Positions 25,764-47,189 of a stretch of 51,235 bases of DNA are shown here, piece by piece. Location: the NCBI GenBank assembly GCA_018658465.1, contig JABHVE010000059.1, positions 1 through 51,235 on the forward strand, in the 5' to 3' direction. The notes under the pieces were generated by a model. The model had not been told where the DNA came from, did no database searches, and saw only the letters and a list, made by a program, of their open reading frames with translations. Position 1 is the first letter of the stretch; each line of letters opens with the position of its first letter. This DNA comes from Alphaproteobacteria bacterium. GTDB lineage: Bacteria > Pseudomonadota > Alphaproteobacteria > UBA2966 > CAIVPW01. The translations under genes were made by a program, and so were the position numbers.

Positions 25764-26501
25764 ATGCCTTGGCTAATTCTTGGAACCAGCGTCCTGGTGG
25801 CGTTTGTGCTGGCCGGGTCGTTCTTCGCCAACGCCCCACCCAAGACTTTGGCTAAGGCGTTGAAGTGGGGCGCCATTGGCCTAGGCATTTTGCTTCTGAT
25901 CGGGGTTTTGGCCACGGGCCGCGGGGCACTGCTGCTGCCTTTGGTCCTGTTCGGCATACCGGCGGGGCGGCGCATGCTGCGCGGCGGCGGCTTTCGCATT
26001 CCAGGCATGGGATCGGCCCCCAGCTCTGGCAACACATCAGAGGTCGAAACCGCCACCCTGCGCATGGTGTTAGATCATGATTCCGGCACGGTGGACGGCG
26101 AAGTCATCGCCGGGACATTTGCCGGTCGCGGCCTGGGGGATCTTAAAGTGGAAGACTTGGTCGATCTGTTGGACGAATGCCGCCGCGATGACGCAGAGTC
26201 CGCGCCCCTGGTGGAAGCCTATCTTGATCGCGCCCACCCGGAATGGCGGCAATTTGCCGGCGAAGGCTACGAAGAACAAGCCGAGGGCGAACCTGCGGAC
26301 CCCAACGACCCCGGTGGCTATGACACCCCCATGAATGCCAAAGAAGCCCGTGGCATTTTGGAAGTCGGGGCGGACGCCACTGGCGACGACATCAAGAAAG
26401 CCCATCATCGCCTGATGAAAAAGATGCACCCGGACCAGGGCGGCTCCAACTACCTGGCCAGCAAAATCAACCAAGCCAAAGACGTCCTTCTCGGGTCTTA
26501 A
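25764..26501 (+). CDS. Membrane-anchored DnaJ (J-domain) protein
   Basis: N-terminal TM; C-terminal DDIKKAHHRLMKKMHPDQGGSNYLASKINQAKDVLL with HPD motif. Confidence 0.9.
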   Translation: MPWLILGTSVLVAFVLAGSFFANAPPKTLAKALKWGAIGLGILLLIGVLATGRGALLLPLVLFGIPAGRRMLRGGGFRIPGMGSAPSSGNTSEVETATLRMVLDHDSGTVDGEVIAGTFAGRGLGDLKVEDLVDLLDECRRDDAESAPLVEAYLDRAHPEWRQFAGEGYEEQAEGEPADPNDPGGYDTPMNAKEARGILEVGADATGDDIKKAHHRLMKKMHPDQGGSNYLASKINQAKDVLLGS

Positions 26502-26511
26502 CTCTGCCGAT

Positions 26512-26546
26512 CAGAGTCACGTGGTGTTAAGCGACGCCACGATCTG
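26512..26546 (+). repeat. Hairpin repeat copy A1 (subtype I)
   Basis: CAGAGTCACGTGGTGTTAAGCGACGCCACGATCTG. Confidence 0.9.
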
Positions 26547-26563
26547 CTCTCAAATCTGCCGAT

Positions 26564-26598
26564 CAGATTCACGTGGCGTGAAGCCACCCCACGATCTG
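26564..26598 (+). repeat. Hairpin repeat copy A2 (subtype I)
   Basis: CAGATTCACGTGGCGTGAAGCCACCCCACGATCTG. Confidence 0.9.
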
Positions 26599-26601
26599 AT
26601 C

Positions 26602-26868
26602 TCAGCCCAATAGTTTTTCTATGGCAGGAGTCACTTGGGAATAGCCTCGCTCGATCTCGACAAGGATTTCTGGGATTGCTTCCAAGGCCCCGTCCCTTGC
26701 GGCAGCTTCCGCTTTACCGGCCCATTCCGAAAGTTCCTGTGCGCCCAACATGGCGCTGTTCCCCTTAATCTTGTGCGCCGCAGCCTCGATTGATTTGCGG
26801 TCTCCACCGGGCACGGTGGAACGCATTTCGTCTATCAGTCTGGGAATCGAGTCGAAACTCATTTGCAA
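26602..26868 (-). CDS. Hpt (histidine phosphotransfer) domain protein; annotatable TTG start truncates the domain N-terminus
   Basis: AAHKIKGNSAMLGAQELSEWAGKAEAAARDG with phospho-His motif; same frame open upstream to about 26960 without canonical start. Confidence 0.8.
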   Translation of the reverse strand: MQMSFDSIPRLIDEMRSTVPGGDRKSIEAAAHKIKGNSAMLGAQELSEWAGKAEAAARDGALEAIPEILVEIERGYSQVTPAIEKLLG

Positions 26869-26941
26869 AGCGTCCTCATAGGCTTCCCCAAGGGTTTCTC
26901 GGGAGCTTTGAATGACCTGAACGGCTTCGGGGGAGAGAATG

Positions 26942-28891
26942 TTATCCCCCCCCCTTCAAACCATCTCGGTCCGGAGGAGCCGCCTCTACTGCCGAGTAAC
27001 CCGCTACCCGATCGGTAACCTCAGCGATGGCCCGCCAGACATCAGGGACCTTGAATGGCTTAGTGATGTAACGATCAAAGCCGTCATTTTTTGCGGCACT
27101 TGTGTCAACCTCCAAGGCGTTTGCGCTGATTGCAATTACGGGGATGTCTTTCGTCAACGGATCTTGCTTCAGCAAGCGGGTGGCCTCAGACCCGCTCATA
27201 CCCGGCAAATTGATATCCATAAGCACTATATCTGGCGGGCTTTTTCTAATTGAGGCCAATCCCATCTCCGCAGTTTTGGCGACCTCGAGCTCGAAATTCG
27301 GCGCTTCGGCCATGATCGCCTTCATCAATTGGATGTTGGCCGGGTTATCCTCAATATAGAAAACCCGCTTGTGGGAAGCTTCGATGCCAGGAGCAACTGA
27401 GAAAATCTCTGCAGCAGAAACGTAATCTTCCTTGATCGCACCACTCTCTGGGGTGGTGAATGGGGCTGCGGGAATTTCGAACCAAAAGAGGCTGCCTTTT
27501 CCAAGGGTGCTTTCAACGCCCATGCGGCCACCCATTTGCTCGACCAATTGTTTGCTAATGGTAAGACCGATGCCGGTCCCCTCGACAGGGCTGCTCGCTT
27601 TGTCCAAACGATCGAACGGCTTGAACAGGGCGTCAAAATTTTCCTCTGGGATTCCTTGACCGGTATCGGATACCGAAAAACGAATTTGGCCCCCCTCAAC
27701 GGAGGTGCAACTAAGATCTACGCTGCCGCCCGGTCGATTGTACTTCACGGCATTGGACAGCAAATTAAGAAGAACCTGTCTGGCACGGGTGAGGTCGGCA
27801 AGAACCCCATCGGTCAACGTTTCAGGCTCACTAGCCTCCACCTTGATCCCGTATTGCTTCCCCAGCGCTTTTGCCATCCCCATGGCGGGTGAAATGAGTG
27901 CGTCGATGCTGACGGCTTCGATGGAAATTTCAAGGTTGCCGGATTCAATTTTCGCCAATTCCAGGACATCGTTGATTAAGTCCAGCAGATGATGGCCGCT
28001 TTCCAGAATGTGCCCCACGCCTTCACGCTGGATTTCGCTGTAAGAAATCCCCGGATCGTTCAGAATTTGACCGAACCCGATAATGGCGTTTAGGGGTGTC
28101 CTCAATTCATGGCTCATGGACGACAAGAATTCTGACTTCGCGTTGTTGGCGGTTTCGGCCTCTTCCTTGGCCACAAGCAGCGATTTTTCGGTTTGTTCGC
28201 GGTATGCCACGAAATGCCGGAGCCGCAAGAAGATGATCAGGCTGATCCCGATCAGCAAAAACAGCGCGATCGTAAAAGCGACAACGGAGTAAGTTCGCAA
28301 TTGGCTTGATTGGGTCTCTCGGTCGATTAAAAGAGTCTCTTCTTCGGCGGCCAATTCCTGAACAATCATTCTGATTTGGTCCATGATCTCTTTGCCCACA
28401 TTGGTTGTGACCAATTCAAGGGCGGCTTCCAACCCTTCGGATTGGTACAAATCGATTGTCGTTTCCAGCTCGTCTACCTTTTCGTCAATCAACGGGGAAA
28501 GATTTGAAATTCTTAATTGTTGGCGAGGATTGTCCGCCGTTAGGGTACGGAGATTTTCGAGGGCCGAATTGACATTTTGAACAGCCGTACGGAACGGAGC
28601 GAGGTACCCCACCTGGCCGGTAAGCAAAAATCCGCGCTGCCCGGTCTCTAGATCCTGCATTGTTGACAAAAACCCGACGATCGCCGTCTGGACTTGGCGT
28701 GTATGGGTTACCCATTCTTCGGATTTCTCCGATTCATTTTCGACGAAGTAGAAAATGGCAAGCATCGACAGCAGGACAAGGAACCCCACCACAAGGGACG
28801 AAGAACCGAAAACGCCGATTGGGTTGACCCGCGCCATGGGTCCTGGCCGTCCGGTTTCGATGCTAAAATTCGCCACGGTCACCTTTTTCAA
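26942..28891 (-). CDS. CHASE3 hybrid sensor histidine kinase with C-terminal REC domain (TTG start or internal ATG)
   Basis: TM-CHASE3 ([20 protein letters not shown]), HisKA ([19 protein letters not shown]), HATPase ([38 protein letters not shown]), REC ([14 protein letters not shown]). Confidence 0.92.
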
Positions 28892-29165
28892 AGCGGTAGA
28901 ACTGCCAAATGACCCCCGGTGCCCAGGTGCGGGTGCCCATCCGTAAAGATAGAGGGGTGCACCATTGTTTCAACTATCAAATCTAAACCATGATCCCCTC
29001 TGGGCGTGGGGTGGGGAACGATCACAGCCCCGATGTTGACCCCATGATGAGGCGGCCTCAATTCAATCTGGCTACTCACGGGCCATGTGCCCATCATTTC
29101 CTGCCAAAACCGCCCTAACCCGGTTGCCCCCATCCCGCCGCCGTGCCATGAGATGTGGCGTAGAG

Positions 29166-29200
29166 CAGATCGTGGCCCGCTCCTGGGCCACGTGACTCTG
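29166..29200 (-). repeat. Hairpin repeat copy B1 (subtype I)
   Basis: Reverse complement CAGAGTCACGTGGCCCAGGAGCGGGCCACGATCTG. Confidence 0.9.
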
Positions 29201-29214
29201 ATCGCAAACTAGAA

Positions 29215-29249
29215 CAGATCGTGGCCCGCTGTTGGGCCACGTGAATCTG
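29215..29249 (-). repeat. Hairpin repeat copy B2 (subtype I)
   Basis: Reverse complement CAGATTCACGTGGCCCAACAGCGGGCCACGATCTG. Confidence 0.9.
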
Positions 29250-29259
29250 ATCGCCAAAA

Positions 29260-47060: not shown

Positions 47061-47077
47061 CGCTTTTTTTTGTCGTT

Positions 47078-47109
47078 CAGATTCACGTGCCCCCAAAGGG
47101 CACGATCTG
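47078..47109 (+). repeat. Hairpin repeat copy C1 (subtype II)
   Basis: CAGATTCACGTGCCCCCAAAGGGCACGATCTG, flanked GTT...CACT. Confidence 0.9.
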
Positions 47110-47127
47110 CACTCATATTTTTGCCGT

Positions 47128-47152
47128 TCAGATTCACGCGACTTTGTCCTGA
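47128..47152 (+). repeat. Truncated hairpin repeat C2 (5' arm only)
   Basis: GTTCAGATTCACGCGACTTTGTCCTGAC; no CGATCTG arm. Confidence 0.7.
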
Positions 47153-47156
47153 CGTT

Positions 47157-47189
47157 CAGATTCACGCGGTGCAAGCGCACCACGATCTG
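47157..47189 (+). repeat. Hairpin repeat copy C3 (subtype II)
   Basis: CAGATTCACGCGGTGCAAGCGCACCACGATCTG. Confidence 0.9.

Follow-up and report, generated by a model that had tools for sequence, protein, structure and literature searches.

In histidine kinases of the ArcB/BarA type the HK, REC and Hpt domains follow one another in a single chain, and BvgS has the same domain order, which is also that of the locus described here. In Bordetella pertussis, a one-base length change in the C6/C7 tract of bvgS breaks the frame of the hybrid kinase (PMC1891110). Our locus resembles bvgS in that a homopolymer lies inside a hybrid kinase gene, where a change of one base breaks the frame. The outcomes differ: in bvgS the change cuts the kinase short and abolishes its activity, and both tract lengths have been observed, whereas here HK-REC stays complete, the Hpt alone is detached and one length is known. 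With the ArcB/BarA-type kinases the locus shares the domain order and, through members of its class, a collinear alignment across the junction, but its frame is broken by one base and its kinase is closer to HK-REC proteins that lack an Hpt. Stand-alone Hpts form a third point of comparison: HptB of Pseudomonas aeruginosa (PDB 7c1i) is the best solved fold match of the detached domain, and a related genome, G168, shows the same gene order and an out-of-frame overlap.

A frame break between kinase and Hpt domain

The window, the whole stretch of 51,235 nucleotides that was analysed, forms a single contig in an assembly of 2.05 Mb and 155 contigs. Its features at the break are as follows.

26942 to 28891, minus strand: hybrid histidine kinase, CHASE3-HisKA-HATPase-REC, 649 aa, with a predicted TTG start (ORF and Pfam)
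26946 to 26954, minus strand: run of nine G where the frame breaks, within the REC-Hpt linker (sequence)
26602 to 26946, minus strand: Hpt domain, one frame over, of 114 codons and a stop (PF01627, AlphaFold2, PDB match, N-terminal profile test)
26866 to 26868, minus strand: TTG, the earliest common start codon of the Hpt frame, which would cut the first helix (ORF list)
26938 to 26940, minus strand: ATT, alone among table-11 starts in leaving the Hpt whole, one base past the kinase stop

The kinase frame contains CHASE3, HisKA, HATPase_c and REC, all above the Pfam cut-off, and it is a hybrid histidine kinase (HK-REC) in having HisKA, HATPase_c and REC in one chain. Positions 26965–26942 of the minus strand read GAT GGT TTG AAG GGG GGG GGA TAA, and the frame stops within AAG GGG GGG GGA TAA, the TAA coming directly after the G-run. 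This run counts exactly nine G (26954–26946), and the junction sequence occurs once in the genome. The Hpt frame has an in-frame TGA just 5' of the run, is open from the run to 26605, and offers no ATG, GTG or TTG before the TTG at 26868. An Hpt domain (26946–26605; PF01627, E=1.3e-14, 54.7 bits) bearing the phospho-accepting histidine of the HxxKG motif, here AHKIKGN, is found 3' of REC, as in tripartite HK-REC-Hpt kinases, but the three parts do not share one open reading frame. The first-pass annotation had described a G9 run separating a hybrid kinase from an out-of-frame Hpt, a TGA just before the run and the lack of a common start codon until 26868; sequence, ORF listing and Pfam bear it out on all of these.

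Translation of the Hpt from TTG 26868 would give a separate, shorter-than-usual Hpt. A GAGG lies about 5 nt upstream of this codon, and the Pfam core, residues 26–105 of the Hpt translation (P0002), would be kept. The 26 residues upstream are, however, conserved Hpt sequence. A profile was made from 56 homologous Hpt regions, the window sequence being left out; the full 114-aa translation scored 100.3 bits against 90.8 bits for the TTG product, so that in this test, anchored on the core domain, the first 26 codons, from the G-run to the TTG, contribute 9.5 bits. Controls for these residues reached the full score in 20 of 5000 cases with shuffled residues, in 3 of 5000 with translated shuffled DNA and in 13 of 5000 with random open genomic stretches; these came from the window, and the true segment may be among them. 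A previous profile test on the N-terminal segment alone was weaker and pointed in the same direction (79/4752 shuffles, 21/5000 DNA shuffles). All 61 Hpt homologues examined have at least 22 residues ahead of the position equivalent to the TTG.

The codons ahead of the TTG thus match Hpt sequence, and the stretch from the G-run up to the TTG very probably codes for Hpt; therefore the Hpt would be either read through the G-run or started at ATT 26940, where the Hpt ORF begins when all table-11 starts are allowed. The TTG product would very probably be incomplete, even though its Pfam core would survive. The earlier claim that this start deletes the first Hpt helix holds in part, since the helix predicted at residues 6–44 (AlphaFold2, single sequence, pLDDT 92) spans the TTG and would be halved. 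The N-terminal profile test disfavours TTG 26868 as an adequate start, and we consider translation from it decidedly unlikely.

A single chain or two genes

Most Hpt homologues in the class and phylum lie in long open single-chain frames, as fused HK-REC-Hpt proteins. A query joining kinase and Hpt was collinear across the junction with three single HK-REC-Hpt proteins (L117, L115 and L116), the REC-Hpt spacing is similar in several fused homologues, and in many class members the matches to kinase and Hpt share one frame. Two things lead us to rank first, with moderate confidence, the reading in which a tripartite HK-REC-Hpt gene was broken by one base at the G-run: the Hpt has no common start codon that would keep it whole, and most of its homologues are fused. 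An ancestral HK-REC-Hpt kinase would have had its frame put off by one base at the slippage-prone G9, in the flexible REC-Hpt linker; in the consensus, the kinase would then end three codons into the G-run as a complete HK-REC, leaving the Hpt unjoined. We infer both the single-chain ancestor and the type of length change, which would be an ordinary one-base change of run length: most likely an indel carried by the sampled population, arisen through replication slippage, and with lower probability a homopolymer miscounted in the assembly.

The closest kinases (40–48% identical) argue against a broken chain. Most of them end 17–39 residues past the KP of REC, and nearly all are without an Hpt, fused or nearby, so the kinase in the window may be complete already; an exception within the same kinase subfamily is L147, which has a fused Hpt-like domain. 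In favour of the broken chain, the tail in the window looks like an interdomain linker and is slightly longer, at 40 residues from KP to stop, than in these close HK-REC proteins (17–39). A further point against the broken chain is that the search for a close orthologue of the whole unit in GTDB 220 contigs returned three distant loci only, which leaves the ancestral state to inference. Plasmids gave matches of about 35% identity only, and the relatives searched include no other species of the same genus. As to the alignment of orthologues proposed in the first-pass annotation, most Hpt homologues are single HK-REC-Hpt proteins, and no orthologue turned up to show conservation of the G-run. 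The annotation had set out four explanations and made no choice between them; the single-chain reading agrees with the fused homologues and with the Hpt character of the codons before the TTG, but sits less well with the Hpt-less closest kinases. The kinase's closest paralogue in the same genome (42%; G000:C70:37087-38301) is an HK-REC without Hpt, for which the search gave an in-frame TAG at the point where the match extends beyond REC.

Another argument against the broken chain comes from G168, which shows that a separate, out-of-frame Hpt can follow an HK-REC. In this genome (L149, 2623-2650) an HK-REC gene is followed by a separate out-of-frame Hpt gene and then by a response-regulator gene; the Hpt has a proper ATG, an ATGA overlap and a good ribosome-binding site. 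Judged by its gene layout, G168 is a natural split counterpart of the window, where the arrangement is the same except that the start codon would be ATT. The window differs from it in having no common start codon (ATG, GTG or TTG) that keeps the whole Hpt domain.

The main rival is a pair of genes, in which HK-REC ends naturally at 26942 and a separate, translationally coupled Hpt starts at ATT 26940, with the G-run as ribosome-binding site and a hairpin that would be opened by the terminating ribosome.

26923 to 26956, minus strand: predicted RNA hairpin in which the G-run pairs with UCUCUCCCCC, with the kinase stop and some of the ATT in its loop

Such an arrangement would account for the closest kinases ending at the same place without an Hpt, and G168 has the same layout, there with an ATGA overlap. 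The ATT stands one base past the stop, is a listed table-11 start and fits the start position of stand-alone Hpts, which in relatives begin 24–29 residues before the TTG-equivalent. The G-run can also pair with the C-rich stretch that follows it. The Hpt of G168, however, starts at a normal ATG, and ATT starts are very rare in bacteria (infC, pcnB), which counts against two genes. The hairpin beats shuffled sequences only weakly (81-nt fold, z=-1.95; 6 of 200 shuffles equally good), and a tRNA was the only Rfam match in the window. We treat two genes with an unusual start as a serious rival, though on balance a doubtful one, and retain the broken chain as the preferred reading.

Length and context of the G-run

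The length of the G9 run is no greater than chance allows. Counted as overlapping words, G8 occurs four times in the window, against 7.9 expected from shuffles, and the 2.05 Mb of the genome hold 21 tracts of at least G8, six of them G9 and none longer. About a dozen other G8/G9 runs, one being a G9 (C53), lie inside ORFs that continue through them, and across the assembly the frame stays open at nearly every other coding G8/G9 run. These open frames argue against a systematic homopolymer error, or general misreading, as well as against a genome-wide contingency habit, while leaving room for error or contingency at this one site. A genome-wide poly-G contingency habit was rejected on the tract counts and the open state of the other coding runs. 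A G8 run at G000:C92:14764-14771 (L040) also lies at a gene junction where the downstream frame differs; from the sequence, what looks like miaB ends there and a phoH-like gene apparently begins.

The first-pass annotation had listed a phase-variable contingency tract and programmed frameshifting among its explanations, and neither gained ground. In the former, the run length would toggle the product between HK-REC and HK-REC-Hpt; a run of this length can slip, and the C6/C7 tract of bvgS offers a precedent in a hybrid kinase (PMC1891110). Over-representation of tracts in the genome, which has served to recognise phase-variable loci in Bordetella (PMC1891110), is nevertheless not seen here: G-runs are not enriched, none exceeds nine, nearly all other in-gene runs leave their frame open, and the searches returned no orthologue showing conservation. 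We therefore regard phase variation as quite unlikely.

Programmed +1 ribosomal frameshifting, or RNA slippage, at the G-run would instead deliver a measured share of HK-REC-Hpt. As in prfB, the run could serve as an internal Shine-Dalgarno, and GGG can re-pair one base on. Low-level frameshifting has been described at a G7 run of a herpesvirus gene (PMC5009743). No stimulator was found at the usual distance, however, and the predicted fold includes the slip site itself. The literature searched yielded no bacterial histidine kinase with programmed frameshifting, and a look-up of G-run transcriptional slippage found nothing. With G-runs not enriched and no orthologue showing conservation, recoding gains no positive support and is very improbable.

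Whether by length variation or by recoding, it is unlikely that the G-run works as a functional switch setting the ratio of HK-REC to HK-REC-Hpt, and the break is probably not a programmed or selected one. If it were a switch, it would uncouple the relay domain or join it on, and so redirect the phosphorelay, toggled between two- and three-domain forms at a defined linker, with the kinase not destroyed; as a device this would be cleaner than bvgS, where truncation turns the kinase on or off. If the break is instead a plain indel or a misread run, it serves as a reminder that homopolymer breaks in single assemblies should not be taken for regulation.

A probable insert between a J-domain gene and galU

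The kinase/Hpt unit lies between a J-domain gene (25764–26501) and galU (from 29260), and fills the 2.76 kb that separate them in the window.

26502 to 29259, no strand: lineage-specific insert holding the kinase/Hpt unit (flanking genes adjacent in relatives)
26509 to 26600, plus strand: two REP-like hairpins in tandem, bounding the insert on one side
29165 to 29252, minus strand: two REP-like hairpins in tandem, inverted, bounding it on the other side

Relatives within the order have the two flanking genes side by side, with roughly 70–180 bp between the matches, and the kinase/Hpt module was absent between them in the relatives that have both genes on one contig. The unit is best read, from this comparison of gene order, as a lineage-specific insertion, and would therefore have no syntenic orthologue. 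Its codon GC (0.57/0.40/0.60, against 58% for the window) is low, which is consistent with a horizontal origin without proving it.

The hairpin pairs start 7 bp past the stop of the J-domain gene and end 7 bp before the ATG of galU. Each hairpin has the form CAGATTCACGTGGC...GCCACGATCTG, with at least 32 exact pattern matches genome-wide and stem tips that vary, often while still paired. It had no match in Rfam, and its CACGTGG core was absent from the gaps between the J-domain gene and galU in all eight relatives examined. The repeats may have taken part in the insertion, or may simply occupy both intergenic spaces. The REP-bracketed insert is probably a more unusual feature than the G-run and, lying beside galU with its kinase, may deserve more study. 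Copies of the hairpin often stand in tandem, neighbours usually being identical, and vary in their loops and stem tips from site to site; a further REP-like site in the window lies at 47075–47169.
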